Below are positions 1-42,383 of a stretch of 42,383 bases of DNA, piece after piece; positions within the stretch are counted from its first letter, which is position 1, and every line of letters begins with the position of its first letter. A program made the position numbers and the translations under genes. Below the pieces are notes generated by a model, which saw only the letters and a program-made list of their open reading frames with translations, searched no databases and was not told the origin of the DNA. This stretch comes from Jaapia argillacea MUCL 33604 (lineage: Eukaryota > Basidiomycota > Agaricomycetes > Jaapiales > Jaapiaceae). The DNA is taken from contig KL197789.1 in assembly GCA_000697665.1 (NCBI GenBank), positions 23,929 through 66,311 of the forward strand, written 5' to 3'.

Positions 1-1236
1 TTGTCAATGTCAGCGATGTTACCAAGATGCTTAAAACGACAGTACAATGAACCACCAAGGCTGTTCAGATGGCCTGGCTTCTTAGGGTGGCCATCAGGAG
101 TGAGTCGCACTGCATCCTGAAGTGCCAAGATTGAATTGTCAATGTCGGCAATATTGCTGAGATGATTGAAACGGTGCAACAATGAAGTGCCAAGGTTGTT
201 CAGATAGATGGACTTCTGGGGGTTGTCTGGGCAAGCCATCTCTACAGCATCAGCATAAACTGATACTGCCTGATTTAAGCTCTCCACCCCATGATGGTTT
301 TTGTAGTTTCTCAACCACATGTCACCCAAGATATCGAGCATCCCTGCTCTTTTATCTGCATCTGGTTCCACCAGTACTCTGCCATAGATGATATTGAGGA
401 CCTTGGGACTCAATCCATCAATGGTCTGAGAGAGAGCCTGAGATATCCTTTCAACATTGAAATAGTATGGTGTTTGTGTATTGTATATATCTGCTAACAC
501 ATGGGTAAGGCTGTCAATGAATCATAAACAATGAACTCCGTACCTGTGTTGGGAATACCAGTTGCTCCAGCAGGTTCGCAATTTGTGCTTTTCGGCAGCA
601 AAGAAGAATGTGCAGTGTTGGACCCATGGATGACGGAAAAATCCAATGCGAGGTTGAGACTAGCAAGGTCTCGAGTGACATCTGCAGACATTTGGATGAT
701 TAGAATGTGACCCCAGGTGATCAGAAGTCCATAGTACACACACAACATCCGCCCCTGGGCTGGAATATCTTGGCTGGTAAGCTCCATGGAAGCAAGTTGC
801 GTGGTGATATGGCTCGCTTTGTCAACCATCACTGTGATCAAGAAATGGGAAATATCATCCGAGTCAGGTCTACAGTGGTGGTTCAGCACATCGACCTGAC
901 TGCTTCCAGCTGCAAGACAGTAACTCACACATCAATGCAGTCTTGCACCCTCCACACCTGCTTGTTGGGTTCTTGCTCGCCTGGCACAGTCTCATATATG
1001 ACATTGCCATCCAGAGTGAGCTGGAGGAATATCTGGGCATCGTCAAGACTGAGAGGCGAAGAATGCCCGCCACGCAACAACGTGATTGTAAAGTCTAGTG
1101 AGTCGAGGGTTCAGACGCTTGCCAAGATCTGACTGCAAACTAGGAAGTCACCTGTAAGATGTATCACCCTGCAAAAGTGTCGCGAATTCAGTGGTTGTCT
1201 ATCAACGCAGGAAGGCACGTACGGAAGAGGGTCCAT
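1..1236 (-). CDS. TPR-CHAT family protein, CHAT-A (5' part; 3' end beyond the window)
   Basis: Partial gene whose upstream half is visible. Start ATG at 1236-1234 gives MDPLPVIHLTDFTI after splicing. Proposed exons: 1236-1223 (14 nt), 1168-1152 (17 nt), 1094-929, 869-742, 681-544 and 490-1 (continuing). These phases stay open with no stop and match CHAT-B exon by exon; introns 1 and 2 are 54 and 57 nt in both genes. Exons 1-5 encode a compact beta-rich, C2-like region (FLQLTLDGN, YETVPGEQ, KQVWRVQD). Exon 6 begins DIYNTQTP and enters the TPR array (LTPDGHPKKPGHLNSLGG). The CHAT domain expected at the C terminus lies outside the window, so the family call comes from close similarity to CHAT-B and CHAT-C. 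The visible part has no nonsense codon, so this may be the functional paralogue. The C2-like label is my inference from strand pattern and position. Confidence 0.85.
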
Positions 1237-1356
1237 GATGGTAGATGGGGAACAGGGCTGGGGGGGAGGCTTGGGCTTGACACCGACCAGCCACATCGCC
1301 ATGCAGCGCCGCATTTCATTCCCGAAGACTCGAATCGTCATTGCTGGTCCGAATAA

Positions 1357-1545
1357 GCGATTGCCGCCCATAACATGAGCACGAGTAGCGCTCATACAAC
1401 AAGGTTGCTTCATCGATTTGCTATGGCCATCACGGAAGACTCCCGTTCAATCACAGCATCAAAGCCTCGTTTCCTTGTGTCGTCGTCGCGTGAGTCCGAG
1501 CCTTGTTCACTCATGTGTATTCTCTGAATTCGTTGTTGCTGGTAT
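1357..1545. repeat. ~200-bp repeat in the CHAT 5' flank, copy r1
   Basis: Begins GCGATTGCCGCCCAT and contains GAGCACGAGTAGCGCTC, then a tract ending near GTTGTTGCTGGTA. Related copies lie at 1588-1793 and 26337-26531. This copy starts about 120 nt upstream of the CHAT-A ATG, and the copy at 26337 about 185 nt upstream of the CHAT-B ATG. It is therefore probably part of the duplicated promoter or 5' flank, and it is tandemly doubled at CHAT-A. No coding frame is conserved among the copies. Confidence 0.7.
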
Positions 1546-1587
1546 GAAGAACCAGCACTAATGCACGGTCGTGAACGAGAGCGATGC

Positions 1588-1793
1588 GCGATTGCCGCCC
1601 ATGTAGGCTCACGAGTTGCTCCACCATCCCCGAGCACGAGTGGCGCTCGTGCAACCGGATTGATTTGCTATACACTGTACCACGGAAGACTCCTGTTCGA
1701 TCACCGCCTCGTTTCCTCAGCGTGTCGTCTTCGCGTCAATCCGAACCTTGTCTCCTGGTACATGTATTTTCCGAGTTCGTTGTAACGGGTAAG
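1588..1793. repeat. ~200-bp repeat in the CHAT 5' flank, copy r2
   Basis: Second, diverged copy of the element at 1357-1545, in the same orientation and separated by about 40 nt. It shares the GCGATTGCCGCCCAT start, GAGCACGAGTGGCGCTC, GGAAGACTCCTGTTCGATCA and TCGTTTCCTC segments. The rest of 1794-2253 holds no recognised gene. It would be the upstream region of the plus-strand gene starting at 2254, and it contains a CRE-like TGACGTCG at about 1975. Confidence 0.65.
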
Positions 1794-2253
1794 AGTGAAA
1801 ATTCGAGTGATCCAGAGCGACACGTCGTTGACACTCCTAGCCAACAAGCCTCCGAGCTCGAGGGACACCTATCCAATTCCGGCTTTACAGATGGGCGGAG
1901 ACGCGTTCCCCATCGATCAGTTATCGTGATAGACGCCCGTGCTCTCACTCTGGTCATCTCGAGCCCCTGGGAAATGACGTCGCACAAACACATCGTAGGA
2001 GTGATTGAACTATTCGTTTCCCCCTGTGTAGGTTCGGCTGCTGTTTTGATTCGGCTGTTGTGATGGTTCACCTTGTTGCAGGCTCAAGTACGCACTCCGT
2101 CATCGGAACTTGGGACAATCCCCTCACACTCCACGTCTATATCGCTCCTATCCTGGAATCCTTCCCATATTCTGATCCCGTTTCGCCTCCGATTCACCTC
2201 ACAACGACGCTGCAAGTCCTTCATTCTCCACACCTCATTAAATTCTCGAAAGG

Positions 2254-3274: not shown

Positions 3275-3339
3275 TGTTGGGTTTTATTTGGGAATTCAGG
3301 GTTTGGTGGCGGGTTGAACAAGGAGTTGTTGTTGATGGA

Positions 3340-3530: not shown

Positions 3531-3531
3531 G

Positions 3532-4190: not shown

Positions 4191-4400
4191 TAGAGTGGAG
4201 ACAGGACTGGATTGTCAAGATATCAGTTGTCGAGATGAATTCGATCGTTCATGTCGACAGCTGCACCAACCAGGCGATGTGGCGGACATGTGTCCGAGTC
4301 CTTGTCCAAGATCCAAGAGTCAACAAGTTGAACAACCTCAGCCATTCGTCGCTATTGGTTTCTGCTTTTTCAATCTTGCACGTCCCTTAAACATCCAGAA

Positions 4401-5590
4401 TGTCCTCGCCGTCGTCGCTCTCGTCCTCGACGACCAGCACGTCTTGCAGCTTTCATTCATCCCTCACCACTTTGACTGGTCGGGCTGCTGCTCCCAGCAC
4501 TCGGAACATCATGGACTCAGACATGCCACCATAAGAAACCATCCCCCTGTCCTTCCCCGACATCCCGTACGACCTCGACATGATAACGCACGCAGACTCT
4601 TCCTGGAGGGTCAATCAACTCCAACTATACGTTCTGTCGAAATGGATTGATCCTGGTGCGTATAGACGGAGCAAAGTACCGGACCCCCAGTCACACAGAA
4701 CGCTTTCGCCTATCACGTTTGCTGGACTGTTGTCTGGCGGGAAGGGGAGGGGTGTTGAAGGAGACGAAGGGGAGGAGAGGAAGGGGAAGATGGGGGAGAG
4801 AAGTGAGGATGGATTGTTTGGAGGGTTGGATGATGAAGACGATGAGGACGAACAAAGGTCTTGTTTCGCAGATGGAAGTACTTATGCCAGGACCTCAATT
4901 CCCTCCTCCTATCCGTCGTCCTCCTCCTCTTTGCCTCCTCTCCTTCTCCACCGCCCGCATCCTCCAAGATAAATACACCTTGGCGTGGTATGGGCTACAG
5001 CCTTACGAGTCGTCGGGAATGCATCCTGTCGGTCGGCGGGATCGTCAAGATCGATAGGAGCATCGTTGCGGAGTAGGTCGAGCCGTGTTTCGAGGGCAGA
5101 GTTAGGACACTCAGAGCCGTGTGGAAAGAGATCAAGGACCCAGTGCGTACGCCTACGTCATCATCGATCTTCCGTCGTTTTGATTGACGGGCGATGTAGG
5201 CCGATCAACGAAAAGACACCTCATCAATAATCTCCAACAGACCAACGAAGTCAAAACCCGATTCTCTCCCTTTCCAGCTGGCGACAAAACGATAGTTGTC
5301 CTCCGATTTTCTTACGTTGGGTCGGAGTGAGGCCAACATTCCCAAACATGGAAATCACCCCTCTTCTTGCCCCACAACTGGGGTCGAAAGAGGAGTGCAC
5401 CGACCAAATCGAGGCATGTTGCGTCATAAATTGTGGGCTGCGAGAATTCCAACAGACGACTATCGCTTTGTCGCTAGCTGTCAAATGCATCGCCTACAAT
5501 ACCAGTTCGGAGCTCCCCTTCAGTTGATGAAGGGCACAACTGTGTCGCGACGCGTGAAACGAGTGCACCCCCAATCGGACCCTTCCGCCT
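4401..5590 (+). pseudogene. PH-like domain protein fragment, copy 1 (degenerate)
   Basis: Homologous at DNA level to 26560-27480. Traces: MSSPSSLSSSTTSTSCSFHS from 4401; PDIPYDLDMITHADSSWRVN and QLYVLSKWIDPG at about 4555-4652; an acidic run GGLDDEDDEDEQ at about 4820; VGGIVKID..., an in-frame stop and FEGRVRTLRAVWKEIKDP at about 5030-5140; then a GTGCGT donor with an intron to about 5200. The copy at 27 kb contains the better-preserved KKGNKVEWRERWMV and GGMLRLCKDRN, which resemble a PH-domain beta-strand pair. Here that stretch is reduced to ELPFQLMKGTTV near 5510. Both copies have TAG at the same codon before the FEGRVRTL motif. Family assignment is tentative. Confidence 0.4.
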
Positions 5591-5599
5591 CTCGAACTT

Positions 5600-6829: not shown

Positions 6830-6843
6830 AATGTGTTTGGGGG

Positions 6844-8590
6844 CTAGGTTACTGCGATGCTTTTGGGTGCTAGTGAGTGGATCGTCGATGAGTTCGGCTT
6901 ATAATCGTGGGTAATCTTCTTCCGTCGCCACACCGTTGACGTACTGACGGCTGTGCAGGTGGCTATCACATCGCATCGTCCTTCATACGACCAACCCATC
7001 CTCTTATAACAGAGCGAGCCATTGAGAATAACGGAACGTAAGTTCGATCGTGTCGTGGGACAGGGAGGGTGGACGTTCGGGTCGTTAGATCGTTTCGGAA
7101 GTTGCAACGGCGTCGTGTTTGCGGTCGGCATCGAAAGACGACCGAGAACCGGGGGAGAAGCCGTATTTCGACGTTGTCATATTCGAAGGAGAGGTCGGTC
7201 GTTTGGACTGTATGCAGAGGAGGGTATCTGAAGGTAGTGAGATGGGTGTGGTTCGGTGGAGGGATGCTGGGGTTTGTAGTGGTCTGAGATGGGGGTGAAA
7301 CCTGAAGGGGAGGGTAAGTAGGAGCGGTGGATAAAGGGTGGAAGAGACGTACTCCAAGTAAAGTGACGAGTTGGGGTACGAATTCGGTATAATTTTGTAA
7401 CGGATCTCGGTCGTCTTTTCGTATGGAGGGGAGGAGAATAGTCGAGTGTGAATGCATAGTGGCGGGATAGCCGTCCCGCTCGCAACATCATCAACTACGT
7501 CGTCCACTGCGAAACAAAACCGTCCCCCGAGAATCCATCTCCCCCGAAACTCTAGAGGGGTCGCATGGAGTTAGTCGACGATATCGAGGGTACATCCCCA
7601 CGTCTTTGATCATCCTTCACAGGCATCGGGTACGTGACGCCGAGTCGTTGATGGGACTATGCGGCAAGATGGGTTGGAAGCGGGGAGCATGCGAAGGGTG
7701 CTTGGATCGGTTGGGGAGATGGAGTGCCCTCGGGCTATTCTCAACACGGAGGGATTCAAGCTCCTAGAGACCGCCTTAGATTTGATGAGCTTGATGCAGA
7801 ACAACCAACTACCGCCGAGATAGGCCCACGGGAAACCCCAATCTTGTTAGCAGAAAAGTAACTTTGTCGGTGCTTCCGATTGGTGAAACTGCAGCGAGTA
7901 TGTATGCGTAAGCGCCATGGCACTGAACGGTAGGTTGGCGGCCTCTGGAGTACTGTGCAAGCATAGCGACCAGCATGGAGTAGTCTAAGATTGCGTAGGG
8001 CCCTCTGAAATAAGTCGGGACGTAGGTCGCCAGGGGAGGTAATGAGACTTACATTCCATCCCAAGCCAATTGAACGCCGTTGCCCAGAGTTCAACCTCAC
8101 CCTCCTCCATTCCCAGCCAGTCGAGGACGCCGGAAGGCCGTCGGTGCTGGGCTTCGTGGGGACGTGTTTGCGTGCAATACATTTCAAAGTCGTACCTTCA
8201 GATATTTGGGCTGACAGGCGTCTCTTGTCCCATTTGTTTCGATTGTCTTCTGGTGAGGGAGGTGCGTGTGTTGGACGGGAGAGGGTGCAGGGTCTGGAGC
8301 GGAGGTGTTGTTAATGGGAAGGGGTGCGAGAATGACTGGTTGGGGATTTCGGCTTCGAGACAGGCGGGAGGAGGACTGAGGAGGAGGGTTATCTTCATGA
8401 GGCGCCTCGAGATCTGTGACGACATCCTCTTCGTAGGCCTTGTGAATGAGGTCATCGAAATCCAAGTCGATCGCCAATGGCAACAGGCGAGACCTCTGTG
8501 CCCAATCGGAGGTGGAGCCGAGATAAGATAAGATAAGGTTTCCCCAAAGTAGCCGGAAGACCAACACGACCACACCAAGCACCATGACAG
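6844..8590 (-). pseudogene. Family 'B' unknown protein, copy B1
   Basis: One of four related minus-strand segments (others 12241-12960, 15916-17620 and 34560-35900). From 5' to 3' on the minus strand: LILSYLGSTSDWAQ, IDLDFDDLIHKAYEEDVVTD, EAPHEDNPPP and SPVQHTHLPHQK (8560-8250); FCIKLIKSKAVSRSLNPSVL and RIARGHSISPT (about 7800-7700); DDRDPLQNYTEFVPQLVTLL (about 7430-7360); and SMARSVIRGW near the 3' end (about 7030-6990). Comparing B1 with B3 over the DFDDL segment, 5 of 8 visible differences are at third codon positions, which supports this frame as the ancestral coding frame. Here it is interrupted by stops and frame changes. Function not recognised. It is convergent to the TBC fragment and divergent from the RTA1-like gene. 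Confidence 0.5.
8522..8537. repeat. (GATAA)3-type array in B1
   Basis: GATAAGATAAGATAAG, three overlapping HGATAR motifs. The same 16-mer occurs at the equivalent place in B3 and B4. On the minus strand it can be read as codons for LILSYL at the start of the conserved B frame, so conservation may be coding rather than regulatory. Confidence 0.7.
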
Positions 8591-15915: not shown

Positions 15916-17620
15916 TCAGGCGACCGCCGAGGCTCGAAATCCATAAACTAGAAACGCACACCACCCTTCCCACTGGGAGCTGCACTTCAACCCAATAGCT
16001 TTCACGAACTCTTCGACCCCGCCTCCAACTCCGAAGTAAACCAACTTTGCAGCCACCAAACACAAATAACCATCTGATTCGCTCCCAGTCACAGGATTAT
16101 TCACCTAGACATTCACATCTACACCAACGTCGACGCTTTAGGTCGTGAAGGAGGAAATCCATCGCCTCGCGGATGATGAAGACGGACATCTTGTGAAAGA
16201 GGCAGGCCGGTACGTGCGTTCCCCAAAAGACGGAGGTAGACTCTCAGGTCTGTAGATCGTTTTGGATGTAACGACGTCGTATTTGCGGTCGGTATAGAAA
16301 GAGGGCCAAGAGCCAGAGGAGAGTGGAGGAGATTTGAGGGAAGGGAGGAAGGCTGTTTGGAGTGTATGCGAGACGAGGAGGTGGGGTTCGGTGAGGGGAT
16401 GTTGGGAGTTGTAGTGGTAGGGGAGAGGGGAGAGACTTGATCGGGAGGGTAAGTAAGGGTGGTGGATAAATAGTGGGAAGGGGAGGGAGAGGCGTACACT
16501 AAGCTAGGGTGACGTTGGATAAAGTGATGAGTTCGAGGACTGATTCGATATAATCTTGTAAATGGGTCTCAGTTGTCTTTTCAGATGGAGAGACGAGAAC
16601 GGTCGAGAGAGAAGGTATAGCGACGGGATGGCCATCCCGCACCCAAAATACGAAGCTCCATCAATAACCATACTGTCCAACTAGGAAACAAAACCGTACC
16701 TCGAGAATCCGTCTACCCGAAACTCCAGAGGGGTCGAACGCAGACGATCGACGACATCAAGGCTAGATTTCCCGCGTCTTTGATCCTCCTTCATGGCATC
16801 GGGTCGAGATCGGATGGGACATCGAGGTGTGATGATGGCAGATTCGTCGATGGCGTTATCTGGTGAGATGGGTTGGGGTGGGCGTGGAGGAGGTCGTATC
16901 TTGCGGTAATTATTTGGACTGGATGGGGAGCTCGAATACCCTTGGACTATTTTCAACACGTAGGGCTTCAGGCTCCTAGAGACTGCGTTAGGTTTGATGA
17001 GTTTGATGCACAAGACAAACGTACCGCCGATCGGGACCCATGAGAAACCCCAACAGCTGGCACAAAAGCAACCTCGTACCGCTTCTCTCAATTCATCCAA
17101 ACCATACCCCTCCTCCAGGTCCTAAACTTCACAGTCCCTCCTTCCCAGAGAGTCGAGGATACCGGAAGGCCGTAGCGAGGTTCGTAGGCACGTCGTCTGC
17201 TTTAGCTTGGCGCTTGCATGCAACGCTTTTCAGGTTTGTCGTATTGGAGATTGGGGCCAACGAGCGTTTCTTGTCCCATTTGTTTCGAGTGCTTCTCTTC
17301 TGGCGAGGAAGGTGCGTGTGTTGGACGGGAGAGTTTAGAGGATCGGGAGAGGAGGATGTGTTGTGGACAAGGAGGTGTGAGAGAACGCATGGCCTGTGGA
17401 TTTCGGTTTGGAGGGAGGTGGGAGGAGGGTGGTCTTCATGAGGCGTCTCGCAGAGATCTGCAACGACATCCTCATCGCAGGCCTTGTGAACGAGATCGTC
17501 GAAATCAAAGTCGATCGGCACGCCAAAGGAAGTCTGTGTCCAATCGGAGCTAGGGCCGAGATAAGATAAGATAAGCTAAAGAGAACAGAAATTCAACGGG
17601 ATGAAGTCGACTTACTGCGT
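15916..17620 (-). pseudogene. Family 'B' unknown protein, copy B3 (best preserved)
   Basis: Minus-strand. A putative intron (GTAAGTCGAC...CTCTTTAG, about 17613-17574) precedes LILSYLGPSSDWTQ, IDFDFDDLVHKACDEDVVAD, ETPHEDHPPP and SPVQHTHLPRQKRS, in one frame from about 17575 to 17130. A second open segment (17100-16681) carries GCFCASCWGFSWVPIGG, FVLCIKLIKPNAVSRSLKPY, VLKIVQGYSSSPS and SLDVVDRLRSTPLEF. Then KTTETHLQDYIESVLELITL (about 16575) and, past 16104, NNPVTGSESDGYLCLVAAKL and VYFGVGGGVEEFVKAIGLKC, ending at 15916. Frame changes between segments suggest either introns I could not place or decay. Function unknown. It stands head-to-head with the UGGT copy at 18130, as B4 does with the UGGT copy at 36270. 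Confidence 0.5.
17560..17575. repeat. (GATAA)3-type array in B3
   Basis: GATAAGATAAGATAAG, identical to 8522-8537 and 35860-35875. On the minus strand it begins directly after a putative acceptor CTCTTTAG and reads LILSYL. Confidence 0.7.
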
Positions 17621-20680: not shown

Positions 20681-21433
20681 GTTTGAGTCCTGGAGCAGCA
20701 GCGCAGCGGTCAATGGTAAAGTGAGCAGCTTCATCCTTCGCTTCCTCAAGGTTCGGCTTGTCTGATCGCGTCGTGACCAGTTTGGTTGTGGGACCAGTAC
20801 TACTTGGAGAATTTGACGTAAGTATAGCCGATTTTAAGTTATTGGAAGCCCGTTGAAATGAAACCTGGAATCGAGTTCGTTTTTGAAGCACTGAAAGATG
20901 TGCTACAGGATGTTGGCGCCTATGACAAGTGAGTCTGTGCCAGCCTGCGTAGCAGGTGATTCTGACTCTATTATCTTGGTCAAAGGGCTGCACTTATCTC
21001 GTAGCTCTGGCTTCATCTCTTGTTTTGTCAATCTAGATCCCTGACCCAGGCAAAATTGGGTTGTTCAACGCACCCCAACACCCTCGAACTCGAAACCGTC
21101 ATCTTTTACATACCCAAGCCATGTTATGGTTGATCTTGTATTCCCACTGCGTTGGCTCATCGTCCTCATCGAAGATGTCAATATCTTCCTCCACTGTTGG
21201 ACTACGTACTCGAGGTTGAGATGAGAGCTTCAATCATTCACCGTGATTATAACTATGAGTCACCAATTGGAATTCAAATGCCAAAGTCACAATAGCACAC
21301 AACAAAGATACTGGCCCCTAATGTACATCCAGGCTACAACCGTGAGTACTCTCCTGAAGACCCCAGATCAGTTCCAGTTCAAAAAACCACAGTATCATCA
21401 GAATAATCCTCTTCATCTGAACATGCCTTTGAG
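20680..21433. other. Spacer between UGGT copy U1 and the CHAT-B 3' end
   Basis: Includes a minus-strand open frame at 20634-20993 (DKPNLEEAKDEAAHFTIDRC) with no recognised family, followed by about 440 nt of 3' flank of CHAT-B. The equivalent place by CHAT-C (38190-38674) differs in length and content. Confidence 0.35.
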
Positions 21434-24400: not shown

Positions 24401-26151
24401 TTACCAAGACGTTCAAAACGACGGAGCAAGGAACCACCAAGGTTGTTCAGATGGCCTGGCTTGTCAGGGTGACCATCAGGAGTGAGTCGCACAGCATCCT
24501 CTCGCACTCTGATTGAATTGTCCATGTCTGTAATGTTACCAAGATGCTCAAAACGATGGAGCAATGAACTACCAAGGTTGTTCAGACAGCCTGGCTTGTT
24601 AGGGTGGCCATCAGGGGTGAGTTGCACAGCATTCTCTTGTGCTCTGATTGCATTGTCCATATTGGTACTGTTACCAAGATGCTGAAAACGAAGGAGCAAT
24701 GAACTACCAAGGTTGTTCAGACAGCCTGGCTTGTTGGGGTGGCCATCAAGAGTGAGTTGCACAGCATTCTCTCCCACCCTGATTGAATTGTCCACATCAG
24801 TGATGTTACCAAGACGCTGAAAACGACGGAGCAATGAAGCACTGAGGTTGTTCAGACGGCCTGGCTTGTCAGGGTGGCCATCAGGAGTGAGTTGCACAGC
24901 ATTCTCTCTCATCCTGATTGAATTGTTCACATCATTGAGGTTACCAAGACGCTCAAAACGATGGAGCAATGAACCACCAAGGTTGTTCAGATAGCCTGGC
25001 TTCTCAAGGTGGCTATCACAAACAAGTTGCACAGCATCCTGAAGCATCAAGATTGACTTGTTGATGTCATGAACTTCACCAAGATGCTTGAAACGGAGCC
25101 CCAATGAAGTGCCAAGGTCATTCAGATAGATGCACTTTTGGGAGCTGTTTGGAGTAGCCATTTGTGTAGCATCTTCAAAAGCTGAGACTGCTCTGTTCAG
25201 GTTCCCCAGCCCATGATTGTTTTGATAGTGCATCAAGAACATCTTGCCCAATGCATTCAGTGCCTCTGCTCTTTTCTCCACATCTGGTTCAACTGGCATA
25301 TGGCTGTGAATGGCATCAAGGTCCCCAGGGCTCAATTTCTCAATGAACTGAGATGGAGATCTTCTCTCATCATTGAGATGTGGTGTCTGTGTATTGTATA
25401 CATCTGCTGACACGTGGATAAGGCAGTCAATAAATCATAAATGTAGAAATCCATACCTGGATTAGGTGTACCAGTTGCTGTGGTGGGTTCATGGTGTCTT
25501 GTCGGTGACAAAGGAGAACCCAGACCATCAGATGTGCAGTTGATGGAAAACTCCAATATACTGTCAAGCCCTGCGAGATCTTGTGTGACTTCTGAAGATA
25601 TTTGGATGATTAGAATGCAATCAAAGGCAATCAGCAGTCTATAATACACACTTGATGTCTGCCTCTCTGCTGGAATATTGTGGCTGACAAGCTTAACAGA
25701 AGCAAGTGGTGTGACAATACGACTTGTGCTGTCAAGCATGACTGCAATTGAGAAGAGAGAAATATCATCCAACTTGGGTCTATGGTGGTAGGTCAACACA
25801 TCTACCCAAACTCCCCTAGCTGTACTGTAAGAGAAGGAATGTAACTCACACGTCGACACAGTCTTGCACCTTCCACACCTGCTTGTCGGCTTCTCTCTCG
25901 CCTTGCACTGTCTCATACATGACATCACCATCCAGTATGAGCTGGAGGAATATCTGGGCATCGTCAAGAAGCGAAGAATGTTCGCCCTGCAACGACGTGA
26001 TTGTAAAATCTAATACATCTGAGGGTTAGCCACTTGTTGAAACGGGACTGTAGGCTAGGAAGTCACCTGTAAGATGAATCACTCTGCGGATACGTCGGAA
26101 AATCAGTACTTGTCTAACAACGCAGGAAGGCACGTACGGAAGAGGGTCCAT
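21434..26151 (-). pseudogene. TPR-CHAT family protein, CHAT-B, full length with four in-frame TGA codons
   Basis: Proposed exons: 26151-26138, 26083-26067, 26009-25850, 25779-25652, 25591-25457, 25403-22294 and 22231-21434. They total 4362 nt, an exact 1454 codons including the stop, so splicing keeps one frame throughout. Layout: residues 1-150 C2-like (MDPLPVIHLTDFTI, FLQLILDGDVMYETV, DISLFSIAVMLDS); 14 units of a 45-residue TPR-type repeat (LTPDGHPDKPGRLNNLGGSL, LGNITDVDNSI); a helical linker (AWLGLPMHERHRELTEAGSL, EWLEQGRSVVWGQLLQL); and the CHAT domain with GPLAFLPIHAAGIYG, catalytic NWVHFACHG, LSACQTATG and GVVATMWSIGD. CHAT domains are caspase-like cysteine peptidases, and the His and Cys motifs are intact. 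TGA codons at 23964, 23829, 23424 and 23085 (first base) break it. Three replace the CGA of an RVRE-type repeat junction. Either a recent pseudogene or a truncated protein lacking CHAT. Confidence 0.85.
23154..25044 (-). repeat. 135-bp tandem array encoding TPR units of CHAT-B (14 units)
   Basis: Unit boundaries fall exactly 135 bp apart, for example at 25044, 24909, 24774, 24639, 24504, 24369, 24234, 24099, 23964, 23829, 23694, 23559, 23424, 23289 and 23154. The unit protein reads E(D/N)AVQLTPDGHPDKPG, (R/Y/C)LNNLG(G/S)SLL, RFE(R/H)LGNIT and D(V/M)DNSIRV(R/G). High DNA identity among units implies recent amplification or conversion. Confidence 0.95.
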
Positions 26152-26336
26152 GGTGGTAGATGGTGAGCAGCCGACTGCGAGGAGGGTTGGACTCTTCACA
26201 GCTGCATTGCCATGCAGCGACCGCATTCCATTCCCGAGGTGTCGTCTTCGTGTCTATCCGAACTTTATCTGTATCGATTTGCCAGGTTCGTCTATGCTGA
26301 CAAGCATGATGAAGCTGAAGGGCCAATCGCATCATC

Positions 26337-26531
26337 GCGATTGCCGCCCATGAACATGAGCACGAGTAGCGCTCATCCAACTCGATCGATTTTGTTATGT
26401 ATCACGCAAGGGTGCGCGTTCAATCACAGCCTTCAAGCTGTTTTCTCGTTTCCTCAGTGTGTCGTCTTCGCATCGATCCAAACCTTGTCTGCTCGTACGT
26501 GGATTCTCTGAGTTCATCGCCGCTGGTAAGG
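26337..26531. repeat. ~200-bp repeat in the CHAT 5' flank, copy r3
   Basis: Starts GCGATTGCCGCCCAT and shares GAGCACGAGTAGCGCTCAT, then TTCAATCACAGC, TCGTTTCCTCAGTGTGTCGTC and GGATTCTCTGAGTTC with r1 and r2. It lies about 185-380 nt upstream of the CHAT-B ATG. Confidence 0.7.
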
Positions 26532-26559
26532 GTCTACTGTGCGTCGATGCTGAGAATCT

Positions 26560-27780
26560 GTGTCAACCCAGGACGGGCAGCCTACTGGGCTATTAAAGCT
26601 CAATCACTTCCTCATTTTATCATCCTACCCATCCTCCTCTCCTCCGTCCACCCCAATCCCTGTCGCCACCAATACACCGCTCTCGCCATTCCACTCCCCA
26701 CTCTTCACCCTTCACCACCCGTATCCTCCAAGACGAATACACCTTGGCGTGGTGTTGGCTACGGCCTTACGGGTTGTTAAAGCGCATCCCATTGTGGGAT
26801 CGTCAAGGTCGATGGGGGCATTGTTATGGAGTAGGCTGAGCTGTATTTCGAGGGGAGGGTTAGGACACTCAGAGTCTCAAGGATCCAGTGCGTATACCCA
26901 CACCATTGTCCATCTTTCGCGTTTTGATTGATGGGCAATGTAGCTCGTCGAGAATGTCATCCTCCTCCAACAGACTATCAATGCCAAAACCCGATTTTCT
27001 CCTCCTTTAGATCCTTCGCTTTCCATCCAAGTTTGGAGTTCCCCTTCTTTCCCATAAAGAAGGGCAACAAGGTTGAGTGGAGGGAAAGGTGGATGGTTAT
27101 TTCGGGTGGAATGTTGAGACTTTGTAAGGACCGGAACGTATGTCTCTCGATTTGGTGTATTCTATTTTTTCGAGCCCCGTTGGCTCCAAGTTTCCGCCTG
27201 GCAGTTTTTGGCTACTGTTTCGACCCTTCCCTCTTCACGAACTAATCGTTCACCTCACCTTCCCTCTAGGATCTCGCCTCTGGTTAGTCGTGGCCACTCT
27301 TGACCCTTCACGCCCTCCGCAGCTCCAAACTTCTCTTCAAGGCAACAGTCCCATCCTCCTCCTCCATCCTTCAACCTCAGACGACTCGGCGAAATTGAAA
27401 CGTTCGATTGCATGTGCGAAATTCACTCGAAAGAAGAAGAGGGGGATGAAGAGGAAGATGAAGAAATGGAAATGAGAATGTCCCAAAGGGAAATGGCGAT
27501 AAACGGTTGGCTCGTTTCCCTCGTTTCCCGGGCCTTGCTGAGATTTCACGACTTTTAGGTCGCATAAACAGCCTGACGATGAAGACGACTTGATGCAAGT
27601 TGACAGAGAGGAAGAGTCATGAAACGAGGACGAGGAGATGGTCGAAGTGGAGGTCCGAAGCCGAAGCGTCGCGAGCCAAGGAAGAAGGCACGCAAATCGA
27701 AAATCAACGTCGCCGCTTTCAAGTTGACGGACGAACCTGCAACTGAATCTGACGAGGTACTCCATACGAATTTCATGAGG
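26560..27780 (+). pseudogene. PH-like domain protein fragment, copy 2
   Basis: DNA homologue of 4401-5590 (shared AATACACCTTGGCGTGGT and GGTTAGGACACTCAGAG). Traces: CGIVKVDGGIVME, then a stop, then AELYFEGRVRTLR (about 26796-26880); a GTGCGT intron ending CAATGTAG at about 26942; VENVILLQQTINAKTRFSP; LEFPFFPIKKGNKVEWRERW and MVISGGMLRLCKDRN (27030-27135) before a GTATGT donor. The KKGxxxEWRERWMVxxGGML pattern is like the first strands of a PH domain. After the acceptor near 27270 the frame is uncertain. 27420-27770 holds a charged stretch (EEEGDEEEDEEMEM, KPKRREPRKKARKSK) in several frames. Tentative. Confidence 0.4.
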
Positions 27781-31297: not shown

Positions 31298-31699
31298 GTT
31301 TCTATTGTTCTTGAAGGTATTGAATACGTGTATGTATGTATTCTTCTTGTATGCTCAGTGTATCAGCAGTCGTAATAGGAAACGGCGTTTGCCTACTTAA
31401 TCTCTTCGGACAATATAGACATGGCTGTAAACCAGGCAAGGTCCAATGCTACGAGCGAGAAGGAGGAAGGGAAGTGGTCGTGCAACCGACTGGTACTCAG
31501 TCGACGAACATATATAATACGGAAATAGGAGAGTGGAGTGCGAGGAGCAGAGTCGCGAGGGTGAGCCCAAGGAAGAGACAAGGAACGTAAGGAAATAGGT
31601 TAGAGAATACATGATGAAATGCAGGAGTCCAAAGTGTTGAATGAGTGGATGATCCAAGTGGTTCCGAAGGAGGGACAACAAAACGGAAGGAATACGCAG

Positions 31700-33420
31700 C
31701 GTACTACTTCTCCTTGGGTCGTTCGCCGCCGCCTCCGCCGCGCATGATCGCTCTCGTGAAGGAGAAGAGACGATCGGAACGCGCTGGAGGACGGACGGGG
31801 CTGATTGTATGCTACGAAAATTCAACCAAAACATCAGTCTCACGCAAGTGAACATGCAAAACAAAGGACTCACCTGATCATCATTGAAACCCTGCCAAAG
31901 ATGCTCAATCTTCTTCAACGATTCATACGGCGTGAGGACATCGATAATGCCCAAGTGATAAATAGTATCCATCAAGTCGTTCGCTTCGTCCGCAGCTCGT
32001 AATCCACCTTTCTCTTGAGTTATTGACGGTCACGAGAGTTGACTTCAGGTAGGGTATCTGTAGACTGCTGGTGAGGTTGGGAGACGTTTTGGGTCAAATT
32101 CGCGCATTGCTCGACGGATGGCGATGGCTTCGAGTGAAAATCTTGAGTTCAGTGAGTTTCCGTTTGAGCGGTGGCGTATCCGGCTACACAAAGAAATATC
32201 TAAAAGTCAACGTTAGGACGGCTCTCATGAAACGATAGACGAAACGGGACACTCACCGAAAACACCTTCAAAGTATTCCTCCTGACATCGTCCCCATTCC
32301 CTCTCTGCATATTATGAATCTCCACCGAGAACTATAATCCATAACATCCACCTCCTAACAACTACGAATCCCTCCTTAACCGTTCCGTCAACAATGCCCT
32401 CTTCTCCGGCCCCAACTCCAACATCTTGCCCCTATGAACCCAATCCAAATCCTTCGAAGCAGCTCTCGGATTCTTCTCCGCCTTCTCCTCCAGATACTCC
32501 CCACCCACAGTAGACCCTTTCAAACCGTACGTCTGGTGAATATCTCGGTGGGAGGAAAGGGGTTCTTCATGATCACAAAATGAACCTTCTTCCCATGAGG
32601 TAGCTTGACCTGATGTAATCCATAAAACCTTGAAGTAGGGCATGTGGGTTACCCTTCACGCATTCGTAATACCTCCTCAAGATGGGTCGGAGGAAACTAT
32701 GTTCGGAATGGTGGATCGTTTTGATGATGAACCGATAATCTCGTGGATGAAAGAATGAACCAGATTTGTTGGGGGAGCCCAGTTCGGAGAGGATATCTTT
32801 TGCGGCGAGGGAGATGAGGTGAATTGAAGATCCGAGGTGGAAGTAGTTTTCGCGGAGTTTGCGGAAGACCCATGGTGAGTAGGTTTTGGATGTGAAGTCA
32901 TATTTGGCGGCTGGGGGCCAGCCCGATGCAAGGTGGTGGAGGTAAGCGATGTTCAGAGAGAAGGCGAAGGAAGAGACACACACATACCAAACGAGTATCT
33001 ATGACGTGGCGTGAAATCCTCATCCGTGAGCGGTCACCTGATCTTTGTCTGACACCATGATACCCGAACGCCAACACCATCAACAATCCGCATCAACAAC
33101 AAAGGTCCATGGGACCCACTCACCGGTATCCGAATCCCCATCAACACATGACTACCAAATCAAATTGCCCGCCACGACTATCATCCTCGCCTCTACCACC
33201 CGCAGCAGCCACAGTCAATTGCCCAATCAACGCAACCTCGGCTTCCTGCTGCGAGTTCGCCCTCTTGCTCTGCGTCTCCCTCCGAATTTGTTCCGCTTGT
33301 ATCCGGATATCGGTGGCGAGCTCCAAACCATCATCACCCACGCCGCCTGCTGCAACCTCCACGATATGGGAATGAGAACCGATTTGAAGGGGGGAGACGG
33401 AACGTCCGCCCGTCATCCAC
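31700..33420 (-). pseudogene. Phosphatidylinositol-4-phosphate 5-kinase (MSS4-type), frameshifted
   Basis: PIP5K makes PI(4,5)P2 at the plasma membrane. Minus-strand pieces in order: IRIQAEQIRRETQSKRANSQ (33320); RCQTKIR, stop, PLTDEDFTPRHRYSF (33050-33000); after an intron, AAKYDFTSKTYSPWVFRKLR, AAKDILSELGSPNKSGSFFH and RDYRFIIKTIHHSEHSFLRP (32905-32690); YGLHQVKLPHGKKVHFVIMK (about 32620); HRDIHQTYGLKGSTVGGEYL and LELGPEKRALLTERLRRD (32550-32365); VMDYS then VEIHNMQRGNGDDVRRNTLK (about 32330-32265); AIAIRRAMREFDP; GLRAADEANDLMDTIYHLGI and IDVLTPYESLKKIEHLWQGF (31995-31885); ISPVRPP (31810). GSPNKSGSFF and the KGS motif are intact. Two frameshifts fall within about 90 nt around YGLHQVKLPHG, and a stop replaces a residue after KIR, so the gene appears inactivated. 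Confidence 0.88.
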
Positions 33421-33429
33421 CTTCCATGT

Positions 33430-34186: not shown

Positions 34187-34510
34187 TTGAACTTGCTTCG
34201 TCCTCGTCGTCTTCGTCACCCAACCTTCCAACAACCCATCCTCACTTCTCTTGCCCCTCTTCCCTCTATGCCCTCTCTCCCTTCCCTCGCCTCCACTTTG
34301 TCTCTTTCAACGCCCTTCCCCTTTCCGCTCGCCAACGGCCCAGCAAACGCGATAGGCGAAAGCGATCGATGCTTCGGCGGGTCCGGTGCTTTAATCCGTA
34401 TATATGCACCAGGATCAACACGTTTCGGTAAAACATATTATTTGAGTTGTTTGACCTTCCAGGAGTCTATATGCGTTGTCGTGTGGGATGTGGCGGAAAG
34501 AGAGGGGTAG
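34187..34510 (+). CDS. Hypothetical open frame, unrecognised
   Basis: Open from 34187 (MNLLRPRRLRHPTFQQPILT) through a Ser/Pro/Leu-rich part to GESDRCFGGSGALIRIYAPG and SICVVVWDVAERE, stopping at 34510. The last third looks like a genuine folded segment. No relative in the window; could be a lone exon between the F-box gene and B4. Confidence 0.3.
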   Translation: MNLLRPRRLRHPTFQQPILTSLAPLPSMPSLPSLASTLSLSTPFPFPLANGPANAIGESDRCFGGSGALIRIYAPGSTRFGKTYYLSCLTFQESICVVVWDVAEREG

Positions 34511-34559: not shown

Positions 34560-35900
34560 AGTGGTCTGATTGGTGTAAGTGGTGCAGTAAGAAGGATGGG
34601 TGCAGGATAGCTAGTGTAGGATGGTGGTCGAGTTCAGGTGGTTGGGGAAGGGGATATCTGAAGGTTTTGAGATGAGAGGGCGTGTTTCGGTGGAGGGATG
34701 TTGGGATTTGTAGTGGTCCGAGAGGGGGGAGAAACCTGATGGGGAGGATAAGTAAGAGTAGTTAGGGGGTGCGAGGGGGAGGGAGGGAGAAACTCACACC
34801 GATTTAGTATGGCGTTAGGTAAAGCGACAAGTTCGAGGACTGAATCATTATAATATCGAAATGGATCTCGATTTCCTTTTGAGATGGAGGCGAGGATAAT
34901 CGAATGAGGATGCAGGGCGATGGGATGGCTATCCAGCACCCAACCTACGAAGCTTCATCAACGACAACGTCGACCAACTACGAAACGAAACCGCACCTCG
35001 AGAATCCATTTCCCCCGAATCTCCGAGGGGTCGAAGCCACATAGTCGACGGTACCGAGGCTAGACTCCCACGTCTTTAACCCTCCTTCATAGACCTCGGG
35101 TACCAGACCGGACGGTGCATCGAGGCGTTGTAATGCAGAGTCGTCGATGAGATCATCTGGTGAGATGGGGTGGAAGTAGGCGTCGAAGAGGTCGCGGTGC
35201 GCGATGGGTGCTTGGATTGGTTGGGGAGATGGAACGCCCTCGGGCTATTCTCGACACGTAAAGTTTCAGGATACTAGAGAATGCCTTAGATGTGATGCGT
35301 TTGATGCACAGAAAAAGACGTACCGTCGATGCAGGCGCACGAGAAACCGCAACGGCTAGCAGAAAATCAACCTCGTACCGCCTTGAACTCCACCTCTCAA
35401 TTCGTCCAAACCGTACTCCTTCTCCAGGTCCCTCAACTTCGCCCTCCTTCCCAGCCGGTCGAGGACACCAGGAGGCCGTCGGTATCGAGGTTCGTCGGCA
35501 CATCTTTTACTTTGCTTGGTGCTTGCGTGCAACGCTGTTCAGATTTGTCCCTCCGGAGATCTGAGCCGACAAGCGCTTCTTTTCCCTTTGTGTCGACTGC
35601 ATTTCTTCTGGTGAGACATGTGCGTGTGTTGGATGGGAGAGAATTCAGGATCAAGAGCGGAGGCGTTGTCGACGGGGAGGTGCGAGAGAATGGATGGTCG
35701 GGGATTTCGGCTTGGATGTGGATGGGAGGAGGTGGAATTCATGAGATCTCACAGAGATCTGCGAGGACGTCCTCTTTGCAACCTTGTGAACGAGGTGATC
35801 GGAACCCAAGTCGATCGAGACGCCAATCGAGGCAACAGGTGAGTCGGAGCTAGGGTCGAGATAAGATAAGATAAGCCAAAGAAATCCAACGAGTCGTCTT
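34560..35900 (-). pseudogene. Family 'B' unknown protein, copy B4
   Basis: Minus-strand relative of B1-B3: LVHKVAK followed by a frame change to EDVLADL (about 35800); SPIQHTHMSHQKKCSRHKGK (about 35635); LFLCIKRITSKAFSSILKLY and VSRIARGRSISPTNPSTHR (35310-35220); FDPSEIRGKWIL (about 35010); RDPFRYYNDSVLELVALPNA (34870-34810); then a Pro-rich tract ending near 34634. It retains the GATA array at 35860-35875. Stops and frame changes throughout. Confidence 0.45.
35860..35875. repeat. (GATAA)3-type array in B4
   Basis: GATAAGATAAGATAAG, identical to the arrays in B1 and B3, even though the surrounding B4 frame has decayed. Confidence 0.7.
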
Positions 35901-38674: not shown

Positions 38675-41600
38675 CTAAAACCCAATATGAATGTATGGCA
38701 CCCAAGAGAGGAAGGATGCCCCTTTCAAACGGAGTTGCTGCACAGCTTGATGCAAGGCAAGTGCAGCTTGGGTATAGTCTGGTTTTCCTCCCATCAAGAT
38801 GCGAGAATAAACATCATCCGCAATGTGAGGAGCATCCCTGTCTCCAATCGTCCACATTGTCGCAATAACCCCACGATAACCAGCCAATAACATCCCCGCT
38901 GCCAGGTGAACAGCCTCCTCAGAAAGATCTTTGGAACCTGTAGCAGTCTGACATGCAGAAAGAAATGCCAACTCTGCATGCGAAAGGGAAAGATCAATAA
39001 TGGTGGAGAGTTTCAACGGCGATCCATTGGCAAGGATGAGGCAGCTGTCAGTAGGATGGGAAACATCTTGCACCCCGTGACATGCAAAGTGTACCCAGTT
39101 GGAGTTGTGCATGTGGTGAAGGACATTCTCCACAGTGGCCTCACCATCTATCAGAGATACAAAATGGATGCCTTTGGCATGATTTTTGATCTGGTTGAGC
39201 TCTTCCTGAGTCCCTGGAAGGGGATTGTGGTGAGGTGCATTTGGCTGTGCAATGGCAAGGAGTTGGAAATCATGTGATGTGGTAACCTCAGGCTGGCGGT
39301 TGTCAATGAGCATGCTCAACGTTGGTATATAAGATAAAACAACAAAGTCAGAGATGCAGTTCCCAGGATCTGAGGTGTTATAAACACCAGCAGCATGGAT
39401 GGGAAGGAATGCAAGTGGGCCAGTTGCACACCACCAAATGCAGGAAGGGTCACTGGGCAGAGACTGGAGGAAATCAGATCCCAAGAATGGCACAAGAAAG
39501 TTAAAATGAAAAACAGACCATCAAAGTTAGCACATCCAGGACAGGTTTGACCACATTGGACCAGAGCTGAGCAAGGATCTTTTCCAATTCAAAGTTGCCA
39601 TCAGGTGCTGGTGGCTTCTTCCCAGGCCTAAACTTTCTCTCCAATGGAGGCAGATGACCAGCTTCAGACAGCAAGTTGTTGAATGTACCCCGTAGTTCTT
39701 CTGCAGTGGTTTGGGTAAGAGTGGGGAGAGGAATGTGGAGCACATCATCCAGGCCAGGCATCAAAATAAGTGCATCGCATTGAGCACTGCTCACATTGAG
39801 GGTGACAACTGGGCCCAAATATGCAGCACCCTTGAGCTGTGAGAAGGGCTTTGGCAACAAAAACCTATCAAAACCTTGGATTCCACAGATCTCTCCCAAA
39901 ATTGCTTCCCACTGTGCAGTGAGCTGATGATGTTCCTGAGCAACCTCTTCCAAGGAGTGCTTGTTGCCAGCCTCAGATGGATGTGATGGGGTGCTTGTCT
40001 GCTGAAGTCGAGTTGAGAGCTGAGCAAACTGATCTGCAAGCTGGGGTTGGACCTGCTGGAGCTCATCGATTGGGGTGCGCAGCTGCAACAATTGACCCCA
40101 AACAACTGAACGTCCCTGCTCTAGCCATTCAACAGCAGTCTCAAATTGTTCAGCCTTAATTGCAGCTAATACAGCATCTCTGGCCAGATTTCCCACCTGT
40201 GTGAGTTCACAATGGCATTCACGCATTGGAAGCCCTAGCCATGCCAATTGGGGTAGGAGGGTTAACAAAGTAGAATATGCTGTTAACAGGGATGTGTGGT
40301 GAGTTTTCTCAGCCTGTCAAGCCCATGTGATTCCAGCTTTAAACCTAGCTGATGGAGAGCCCATATTAGACTGAGCAGCAGTGGACAGTGTCTTGATGGC
40401 CAGTTCAAGAATATCCTGGTCACCAAGACACTCAAAACTGGTGAGCAATGAATTTCCAAGGTTGGTCAGAAGGCCTGGCTTGTCAGGGTGGCCATCAGGA
40501 GTGAGTTGCACAGCATTCTCTTGCACTCTGATTGAATTGTCCATGTCGGTGATGTTACCAAGACATTGAAAACGATGGAGCAATGAACCCCCAAGGTTAT
40601 TCAGATGGCCTGGCATTTCAGGGTGGCCATCAGGAGTGAGTCGCACAGCATCCTCTCCCACCCTGATTGAATTGCCCAGGTCAGTGATGTTACCAAGATG
40701 CTCAAAACGACAGAGCAATGAACCACCAAGGTTGTTCAGATGGTGTGGCTTGTCAGGGTGGCCATCAGAAGTGAGTTGGACAGCATCCTCTTGCACTCTG
40801 ATGGAATTGTCCATGTCGGTGATGTTGCCGAGATGCTGAAAACGGCGGAGCAATGAACCACCAAGGTTGTTCAGATGACCTGGCTTGTCAGGGTGGCCAT
40901 CAGGAGTGAGTTGCACAGCATCCTCCCCTACCCTGATTGAATTGTTGACATCAGTAATATTACCAAGACGCTCAAAATGATGGAGCAATGAACCACCAAG
41001 GTTGTTCAGACGGCCTGGCTTGTCAGGATGGCCATCAGGAGTGAGTTGCACAGTATTCTCATACACCCTGATTGAATTGTCCATGTCATTGATATTACCA
41101 AGATGCTTAAAATGATGGAACAATGAACTACCAAGGTTGTTCAGACATCCTGGTTTGTCAGGGTGGCCATCAGGAGTGAGTTGCACAGCATCCTGAAGCA
41201 TTAAGATTGACTTGTTGATGTCATGCACTCCACCAAGATGCTTGAAACGGAGCCCCAATGAAGCACCAAGGTTATTCAGGTAGATGGACCTATGGGGGCT
41301 GTCTAGGGCAGCCATCTGTATGGCATCTTCATAAAATGAAACTGCCCTGTTTAGGATCCCCAGCCCACCATGGTTTTGGTAGTGCTTTGACAACCCATTG
41401 CCCAATGCATTGAGCAGCTCCACTCTTTTCTCCACATCTGGTTCAACCAGCATAAGGTGGTGGATGACATCAAGGCCCTCATGGCCCATCTTCTCAATGA
41501 ACTGAGACACACTGTCATCATTGGAAGGTGGTGTTTGTGTATTGTATACATCTGCTGATATGTTAGTAAGGCTGTCAATAAATCATCAACAAAAAAATCT

Positions 41601-41927
41601 GTACCTGTGTTGGGTGTACCAGTTGCTGGGGTAGGTTCACAATGTGGGCTTTTTGGCAACAAAGGAGAACCTGGACCATCAGACTCTTGCTTGATGCAAA
41701 ACTCCAATATGTTGAGACCTCCAAGATCTTGAGTGATTTCTGCAGATATTCAGATAATTAGCAAGCAATCAGAGACAATCAGAAGTCCATAAAACACACT
41801 TGATGTCTGGCCCTTGGCTGGAACATCTTGGTTGGTGAGCTCAATGGAACTGAGTTCTGTGGTGATGCAACTTGTGCTGTCAAGCATCACTTTGATTGAG
41901 AAGAGAGAAATATCATCCAACTCGGGT
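38675..41927 (-). pseudogene. TPR-CHAT family protein, CHAT-C (exons 4-7; 5' end displaced)
   Basis: Exons 41927-41800 (128 nt), 41739-41605 (135 nt), 41551-39519 and 39463-38675 reproduce the CHAT-B phases and the exact lengths of exons 4 and 5. Encodes the end of the C2-like region (ELDDISLFSIKVMLDSTSC), NTDVYNTQTPPSNDDSV, about six 45-residue TPR units, a linker (AWLGLPMRECHCELTQVGNL, EWLEQGRSVVWGQLLQL) and a CHAT domain with GPLAFLPIHAAGVYN, NWVHFACHG, LSACQTATG and GVIATMWTIGD. One TGA at 40319-40317, between WA and QAEKT, is at the same codon as the last TGA of CHAT-B. Exons 1-3 are not in the window: homology to CHAT-A/B stops inside intron 3 near 41985. Otherwise the best preserved of the complete CHAT ends. 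Confidence 0.85.
40386..41196 (-). repeat. 135-bp tandem array encoding TPR units of CHAT-C (about 6 units)
   Basis: Boundaries at about 41061, 40926, 40791, 40656, 40521 and 40386, again 135 bp apart. Same unit protein as CHAT-B but fewer than half the units, showing that array length varies between paralogues. Confidence 0.93.
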
Positions 41928-41987
41928 CTATAGTGGTGGTTCAGTAGGTCGAACTGAAATCTGCCAGGTGCAAGACAAGCAACACGA

Positions 41988-42383
41988 GAAACAAGCCCCA
42001 CTTTGTTGTGGCGAAAAACCCTGAATATGATGCGTAACATTGCCTCCATTTGCCGTATGTCTTGCGGCGCCGGTAGACCCGACAACATTCCTGAAGGATG
42101 ATGTCGGCTTTGTTGGGGTATCATAATCACCCAACAAAGCCTAAGTTTGGTGGTTTACAGCTTATTTTGGGTATGCCATCAGATTATGTCACCGGGACAT
42201 ACCCAACAGCGGATTAAAACTATTGTGTGGAGTATTACGCACCGAAAAAGTTGATGAATTTGTTGCGACGACAAAGTCGACAACAAATGCTAAAGAATGG
42301 ATCACATCATGGGATGCCCGTGCTATGTCAACAAAGATGGAAGTTGCGGTTGCATTTGTTATCACCACAAGCCCAAAATTCGC
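41988..42383. other. Foreign sequence joined to CHAT-C intron 3, possible mobile element end
   Basis: From about 41985 rightward the sequence no longer matches the CHAT 5' ends. It contains a 12-bp perfect inverted repeat (42106-42117 / 42130-42141) and, to its right, open frames on both strands to the window edge. The plus-strand frame from 42143 reads ...GLKLLCGVLRTEKVDEFVAT and SWDARAMSTKMEVAVAFVIT. No family recognised, no stop before the edge. Confidence 0.5.
42106..42141. repeat. Perfect 12-bp inverted repeat (hairpin), 12-nt loop
   Basis: GGCTTTGTTGGG and CCCAACAAAGCC flank a 12-nt loop, followed by TAAG. A related word CCCCACTTTGTTGTGG occurs at about 41996. Could be a subterminal hairpin of a transposable element. 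Confidence 0.8.

Follow-up and report, generated by a model that had tools for sequence, protein, structure and literature searches.

Disrupted, CpG-depleted copies of a TPR-CHAT protease subfamily in the basidiomycete Jaapia argillacea

The window analysed here, the whole stretch of 42,383 nucleotides at positions 23929–66311 of contig KL197789.1 (C81; 66,311 bases) of Jaapia argillacea MUCL 33604, reaches the contig end and contains three disrupted copies, CHAT-A, CHAT-B and CHAT-C (A, B and C), of a small subfamily of fungal TPR-CHAT proteases. Where intact, a member of the subfamily includes an N-terminal domain of about 130 residues, 15–18 similar TPR units of 45 residues and a C-terminal CHAT cysteine peptidase. 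The search of the genome (43.7 Mb in 95 contigs) with the Pfam CHAT profile found at least 50 places, all 50 above the cut-off; three of these, likewise above the cut-off, are on C81 and correspond to A (with its CHAT part beyond the window), B and C. A spliced protein-to-DNA aligner written for this analysis was applied to 18 of the 50 CHAT loci, and ten of the modelled loci belonged to the subfamily of the window genes: A, B, C, C34a (L014), C34b (L015), C34c (L022), C34d (L021), C34e (L023), C9a (L016) and C9b (L017). With the N-terminal protein of C34a as the genome query, 31 exon matches were obtained, only on C34, C9, C81 and C21; grouped by eye, these matches read as 11–12 subfamily genes.

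All three paralogues are on the minus strand, as the earlier note on this stretch had claimed for one common strand. In window coordinates, the 5' part of A occupies positions 1–1236 (its CHAT being at C81:19251–20030), B positions 21434–26151 and C positions 38675–41927. The spliced model of B included seven exons with the intron phases 2, 1, 2, 1, 1 and 0: exon 1 with the ATG (26138–26151, 14 nt), exon 2 (26067–26083, 17 nt), exons 3 and 4 encoding the N-terminal domain (25850–26018, 169 nt, and 25652–25779, 128 nt), exon 5 (25457–25591, 135 nt), the long TPR-CHAT exon 6 (22294–25403), and exon 7 (21434–22231) with the catalytic CHAT part, the motifs HFACHG and LSACQT, and the natural stop at its end. 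Exon 6 covers a linker, the TPR array, the C-terminal linker and the start of the CHAT region, and includes four TGA codons. The array of B (23134–25158) consists of 15 TPR-like units of 45 residues, a unit length proposed earlier and confirmed by the 135-nt period. C34a, C34b and C34e have the exon order and intron phases of B, with an exon 4 of 128 nt and with exons 3 and 5 varying by whole codons, while exon 4 of C9b has 125 nt.

In A, exons 1–5 with their introns cover positions 491–1236 in the spliced model. Exons 1 (1223–1236), 4 (742–869, 128 nt) and 5 (544–681) were placed by the model, and the limits of exons 2 (1152–1168) and 3 (929–1094) were read by eye. The start of exon 6, with the linker and the first TPR units (1–490), runs on outside the window into an N-run (C81 approximately 22755–23928), which is inside the TPR array just left of the window and hides the array length of A. 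The gene matches the seven-exon plan if its intron 2 takes the 57-nt form of C34e, which is a by-eye reading, the aligner having kept that intron. C begins at exon 4 (41800–41927) and continues with exon 5 (41605–41739, 135 nt), exon 6 (39519–41551), including a seven-unit TPR array at 40368–41312, and exon 7 (38675–39463) with the catalytic CHAT part, HFACHG and LSACQT. Its homology to the other copies ends within intron 3 (approximately position 41977), exons 1–3 are absent, and the 403 bases between the homology end and the contig end at 42383 match none of the other sequences compared. Neither spliced modelling nor the search with the C34a N-terminal protein found N-terminal exons for C34c. 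Exon 4 measures 128 nt in both A and B, and in C 127 nt plus one split-codon base, and the shared fine exon structure described earlier, including the 128-nt exon 4, was recovered by the spliced models of all three copies. The claim of seven exons in each stood for B, and for A with intron 2 read by eye, but not for C.

None of the three genes is intact, in-frame TGA codons having been found in all of them: four in B, one in C and two in A, both of the latter outside the window. C9b has one such codon and C34c two. Three of the premature stops in B are at unit position 39 (23962–23964, 23827–23829 and 23422–23424, minus strand), and the fourth, upstream of CHAT (23083–23085, minus strand), is common to B and C (in C at 40317–40319, minus strand, also upstream of CHAT). 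A, B, C, C9b and C34c together have ten premature stops, every one a TGA, and at these places the relatives or sister units have mostly CGA or CAA; judged from these codons, the premature stops are products of CpG decay of CGA-type codons. One stop each in the N-terminal aligner models of A and C9b was not counted, both being in intron 2 as read by eye. C34d, outside the ten-stop count, contains three in-frame stops within the units scanned, of which the TGA at position 44 fits CpG decay and the TAG at 34 and the TGA at 42 do not clearly fit it. The last stop of B and the stop of C are within an identical 23-mer, which occurs genome-wide in only these two places at two or fewer mismatches, and seven other copies have Gln or Arg codons at the site. 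The CHAT domains of B and C differ in class, and their common stop has either been exchanged or arisen twice.

Altogether, disruption affects six (A, B, C, C9b, C34c and C34d) of the ten loci modelled in the subfamily. Three, C34a, C34b and C34e, gave seven-exon models with no stop in the N-terminal model, the array or the C-terminal model; C9a is also without a stop, though with a questionable N-terminal model. Full-length protein is probably not produced from the window copies, which may serve as donors of units. Between the TPR array and CHAT of C34d there is approximately 2.6 kb of unlike, frame-broken sequence that looks like an insertion.

The CHAT peptidase with its His and Cys motifs was well supported. 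The C-terminal 527 residues of C34a matched the Pfam family CHAT (PF12770) at 5.5e-41 (141 bits), and the catalytic motifs HFACHG and LSAC[QE]T are present in A, B, C, C34a, C34b, C34d, C34e and C9b, with CFACHG in C34c. The last exon of C34a also matched PDB chains named CHAT domain protein or TPR-CHAT (8d9g, 7x8a and 7zoq; E 4e-7 to 1e-4), which we take to be Craspase entries. An AlphaFold2 prediction of the array of C, made from the contiguous window translation with fragments of B and A as the alignment, produced a helical-pair solenoid (predicted local distance difference test, pLDDT, 82.2, 77.2, 41.3, 40.6 and 37.0 in the five models), and TPR domains of SPY, LGN and kinesin light chain were among the Foldseek matches of the model. 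The alpha-solenoid expected by the earlier note was thus obtained, and the 45-residue repeat is predicted to be a TPR solenoid. The Pfam family TPR_10 matched C34a below the family cut-off (E 3e-4).

No support was found for the C2-like front end of the earlier description. The front ends of five subfamily proteins matched no Pfam family at E ≤ 10 except one domain of unknown function (E 0.22), and no PDB profile match was obtained. When the front end was compared with five true C2 domains encoded in this genome, hhalign gave a probability of 0.1, against 95.3 in a control comparing two with three of those C2 domains at similar alignment depth. C2 (PF00168) was rejected as unsupported for the N-terminal domain, and because the Pfam, PDB and hhalign tests fail while the C2 control works, the front end is here called a domain of unknown fold. 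The spacing of its hydrophobic residues, which by eye recalls the C2 strand order, may be taken as a lead. The 50 NACHT places listed genome-wide all lie outside these genes; neither NACHT nor NB-ARC was found by Pfam in the N-terminal parts or in the last 527 residues of C34a, NB-ARC not having been searched genome-wide.

The ratio of observed to expected CpG was low in nine of the ten subfamily loci, 0.14–0.54 in the arrays and 0.13–0.69 in the CHAT regions. Six of eight other CHAT loci had normal ratios (0.86–1.05), and two, L026 and L027, were depleted (0.07 and 0.17). The depleted body of B covers positions 21251–26000 (0.08–0.65 in 18 segments of 500 bases starting at 21251–25501), and around it segments of the same size starting at 20001–20751 and 25751–27501 had 0.72–1.18. 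Eight 4-kb stretches between the CHAT genes of the window, one of them extending 0.3 kb into C, had 0.84–0.98. The promoters of six copies had 0.87–1.09, and exons 1–3 of B, C34a and C34b 0.84–0.96, the depletion in these genes beginning after exon 3. Downstream, the CpG loss ended soon in C34a, C34b and C9b and was partial in B (0.74). The CpG loss affects the gene bodies and spares the promoters.

CpA was in excess (1.3–1.7) in the subfamily loci outside C9a. Repeat-induced point mutation (RIP) of the Pezizomycotina type, with CpA-biased loss across a whole duplicated stretch, does not describe these loci, where CpA is in excess and CpG is lost. The upstream 1.35 kb common to A and C34e has 80% identity and CpG ratios of 0.99 and 1.06, and because this duplicated promoter, a single pair, keeps its CpG near 1, gene-body methylation is favoured over a homology-driven process. 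DNA methyltransferase-like exons were found at three places in the genome. L026 and L027, which belong to another CHAT clade, had CHAT-region GC contents of 0.41 and 0.38, and their modelled C-terminal parts were free of stops.

Comparison of the copies indicated exchange between them. Between a point 300 bases upstream and the end of exon 3, A and C34e were 0.87–0.98 alike, and the CHAT of A was 89.6% like that of B and 74.4% like that of C34e. The approximately 600 nt after the TPR array were 0.76–0.93 alike across eight aligned copies. Past these, A and B were 0.85–0.95 alike as against 0.58–0.80 to the rest, and C, over its last 900 nt, was 0.78–0.93 alike to the C34 class as against 0.63–0.77 to A and B. 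By these likenesses, and in C also by the stop and the linker (0.88–0.91) that it has in common with B, A and C were shown to be mosaics of other copies. The nearest unit was in the same gene for 11 of 13 units in B and 13 of 14 in C34a, and in another gene for 14 of 16 in C34e. No two units were identical, and the mean nucleotide identity of units within a gene, edge units included, was 0.81 in B, 0.79 in C34a, 0.74 in C34e and 0.71 in C34b.

For the tallies of unit diversity, transitions, periodicity and codons, the first and the last unit of every array were dropped. In the intact genes the unit positions of the highest entropy were 21, 11, 25, 17, 7, 39, 13, 38 and 24, and the 43 internal units could all be told apart by their residues at eight variable positions, with 40 different sets at four. 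According to the model, helix A covers unit positions 8–26 and helix B positions 29–45 (converted by hand). Variability had a 100-degree period in helix A (p 0.003 pooled; 0.031 in C34a, 0.001 in C34e and 0.008 in C34b) and no such period in helix B (p 0.93); by this periodicity the residues differing between units were shown to lie on one face of helix A. When the L-x-x-L-G pattern was mapped by hand, unit positions 13, 17 and 21 corresponded to TPR positions 5, 9 and 13, which line the ligand grooves in known TPRs.

The CpG codon tallies included an intact set of C34a, C34b and C34e (43 units) and a disrupted set of A, B, C, C9b and C34c (46 units), with the divergent C9a and C34d, which has the insert between array and CHAT, left out. 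In the intact genes 116 of the 129 codons at unit positions 11, 21 and 25 start with CG, TG, CA or TA, and on this count the variation at these positions was shown to be mostly CpG-decay states of one Arg codon. CG was retained in 0.34 of these codons, in 0.27 (42/158) at near-silent columns, defined as the four columns with C as the third base, and in 0.83 (35/42) at R22; the corresponding fractions in the disrupted set were 0.28, 0.14 and 0.78. All 30 codons for Arg 37 are AGG or AGA, and Arg at positions 11, 21, 22 and 25 is always CGN. Codons 39 and 44 of the intact genes included 40 CAA and no TGA (p 5e-9, with the expectation taken from the TG:CA ratio of CGT-type codons), and selection therefore guards the reading frame of these genes during CpG decay. 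Mutation bias together with tolerance was shown by these codon comparisons, adaptive diversification or positive selection was not.

As a whole, these results are probably best explained by a disrupted TPR-CHAT subfamily with mosaic copies, in which CpG decay of gene bodies varies the TPR groove and intact members would have a role as sensor-proteases. They suggest that the CpG loss both varies a likely recognition surface and kills gene copies. Putative cytosine methylation of gene bodies would feed C-to-T changes that vary the TPR groove, the same changes at CGA codons would also break genes, and recombination would spread the unit variants among copies. In the intact copies, by analogy to Craspase and to a CHAT protease of Podospora, ligand binding in the TPR groove would switch on CHAT, which would then cut a substrate, perhaps a cell-death effector. 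Every step past TPR plus CHAT, including the recognition and defence roles, is what we infer from analogy. It is also conceivable, and rather improbable, that the units carry a built-in mutation engine: several contact residues in each would be placed on CpG-bearing Arg codons (CGT, CGA) under gene-body methylation, deamination on either strand would give Arg, His, Cys, Tyr or Gln, the structural Arg 37 (AGG/AGA) would be immune, recombination would reshuffle the units, and deaths by CGA-to-TGA changes would be the price.

Several observations weigh against the explanation by CpG decay in a recognition protease. C9a has normal CpG ratios (1.07 in the array and 0.82 in the CHAT region), exons 1–3 of C34e and C9b are already depleted (0.47 and 0.44; 0.62 in A), and the downstream CpG loss continues in A (0.32) and C34e (0.06). 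CpG-type changes formed just 11–32% of the transitions between units in three intact genes, so that most unit differences have a non-CpG origin, and positions 7, 13 and 17 vary without CpG. The variable face was assigned from the conserved pattern of L12, L15, L19 and F23 and not from coordinates, and any packed helix should show such periodicity on one face. In the disrupted genes codons 39 and 44 included 38 CAA and four TGA, TGA again being rarer than expected (p 1e-5), as though the genes had died recently or taken up units from live genes. The linker of C was 0.88–0.91 like that of B, only slightly above its likeness to most other copies. As to a caspase-like fold, the structure predicted for the last CHAT exon of B alone, from a two-row alignment, was of low confidence (pLDDT 42.3). 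Finally, replacement diversity at the ten variable positions, which were chosen from the same data as tested, was about the same as the array-wide silent diversity (share of bootstraps above the silent diversity 0.695, 0.435 and 0.685).

The equality of replacement and silent diversity agrees with neutral drift in a decaying repeat, under which relaxed constraint on exposed TPR residues would produce the unit variation without any recognition role. The same is true of the CG retention at the variable codons, which is near that of the near-silent CpGs, and of the disruption of six out of ten loci. However, the intact genes avoid TGA and keep L12, L15, L19, F23 and mostly R22, which implies that their arrays have been kept working, and all 43 internal units of these genes differ in their residue sets; such drift is possible but doubtful. 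Somewhat unlikely is also that the CpG was lost in a homology-driven, RIP-like process instead of gene-body methylation. Only some of the CHAT clades are depleted, the genes are multi-copy, and CpG-biased RIP-like change has been published for basidiomycetes (PMC4014442). Against this, the duplicated promoter of A and C34e has kept its CpG, although this single pair is near the 80% RIP threshold given in PMC1805685, and in B, C34a and C34b the loss begins only after exon 3.

The membrane-sensing C2-TPR-CHAT proteases of death or defence proposed in the earlier note, if encoded intact in the window, would account for the domain order and the CHAT motifs, and genuine C2 domains do precede NACHT by approximately 1.4 kb in five places of the genome (cf. 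PMC9815663). With premature stops in all three copies and a front end that is not C2 by tests in which the C2 control works, this model is very unlikely. The family, the sharing of exons and the analogy to regulated proteases remain from that interpretation, while intactness, C2 and the undescribed ground do not. An escape from the stops themselves, if in life the TGA codons were passed by readthrough or spliced out with short introns that went unrecognised, is hardly credible: B and C do have one TGA in common within the identical 23-mer, but the Gln or Arg codons of seven other copies at that site and the four stops in B argue against it, and the sole GT-AG pair noticed there by eye would be an intron of 36 nt and would delete conserved residues. 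The explanation by CpG decay in a mosaic, partly dead protease subfamily was retained as the best one.

Among the neighbours of these genes, PIP5K matches were found in two exon-like open reading frames (ORFs) on the minus strand at window positions 31397–32029 and 32573–32998 (E 2.3e-8 and 2.3e-18), which from these matches appear to be a phosphatidylinositol-phosphate kinase gene or its remnant between B and C. Twelve ORFs, ten from the flanks or the window and two further ones from the window, were scanned with Pfam and yielded no gasdermin-like neighbour, only the PIP5K pieces. The gasdermin family PF04598 had no match in the genome, which is a weak negative, since the model may not detect fungal gasdermins. 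The proposed survey of gasdermin and NOD-like receptor (NLR) neighbours thus found no gasdermin and one NACHT (C9:162343), approximately 8 kb from the CHAT of C9a. A 108-base repeat is present at window positions 7691–7798, 16903–17010 and 35201–35308, the later copies being 78% and 84% like the first, and similar-looking ORFs are close to these repeats at approximately 8.2 kb and 17.1 kb, the first of them without a Pfam match. An inverted repeat of 187 bases (4601–4787 and 34278–34464) is 79% complementary, its arms 29 kb apart. Elsewhere in the genome, the Pfam C2 domains approximately 1.4 kb upstream of NACHT, measured start to start, are in five places, on C6 (three), C40 and C5; by their order these pairs fit agaricomycete C2-NACHT receptors, and agaricomycete C2-Goodbye NLRs have been reported (PMC9815663). 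L018 and L019 represent a second TPR-CHAT clade with a different front-end domain at the same place and with normal CpG, and the front ends of these two sequences had no Pfam match; a joint alignment was of poor quality and was left unused.

Fungal CHAT proteases have already been treated in reviews, including a TPR-bearing one that activates gasdermin in Podospora (PMC10197012, PMC12881547), and the ground is not as undescribed as had been thought. The Podospora protease (PMC12881547, PMC10197012) likewise combines TPR with a CHAT peptidase in a fungus; here, however, no gasdermin-like neighbour was found in the PF04598 search of the genome or among the 12 ORFs scanned. The bacterial Craspase TPR-CHAT resembles the present proteins in its CHAT sequence (the above matches at E 4e-7 to 1e-4) and in having TPR before CHAT, whereas in these a separate N-terminal domain is present and the similar units form a long tandem array.

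The HNWD/NWD genes of Podospora anserina (het-d, het-e; PMC1805685) are similar in being multi-copy, in their tandem repeats and in exchange between paralogues. Their variable residues are on an interaction face, as may be the case here, where the face derives from the sequence pattern (p 0.003), and their copies are killed by a C-to-T process that has also been proposed as a source of variation. They differ in having NACHT-WD40 with a HET effector instead of TPR-CHAT without NACHT, and a CpA-biased RIP which extends into the flanks but leaves the WD repeats untouched, whereas here the change is in CpG, promoters are spared and arrays affected. Positive selection was reported for them (PMC1805685), while here replacement and silent diversity were about equal. 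Fungal NLRs with internally conserved TPR (PMC4986451), for which that paper sets a criterion of 85% conservation, also have similar units within a gene. Their variable sites are on helices as well, the selected TPR sites having been modelled to the concave side by Dyrka and colleagues; in contrast to them, no NACHT was found here and the protease is directly on the TPR. CpG hypermutation in genes has been described from a basidiomycete (PMC4014442). In the open-licence literature, which makes both negatives weak, no report was found of CHAT expansion in mushrooms or of CpG-driven change in such genes. Precedent thus exists for shuffled repeats, fungal TPR NLRs and CpG hypermutation, and their combination on NOD-less TPR-CHAT proteases was not found in that literature, with the same weakness.

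These copies also warn that a gene may be dead although its motifs look intact. Among fungal recognition proteins, rapidly changing repeats are known mostly from NLRs, and here a similar pattern is seen on a protease without a NOD, with the mutation source of the repeat variation partly traceable. The subfamily makes it testable whether methylation-driven CpG change feeds the diversity of immune-like receptors in a fungus.

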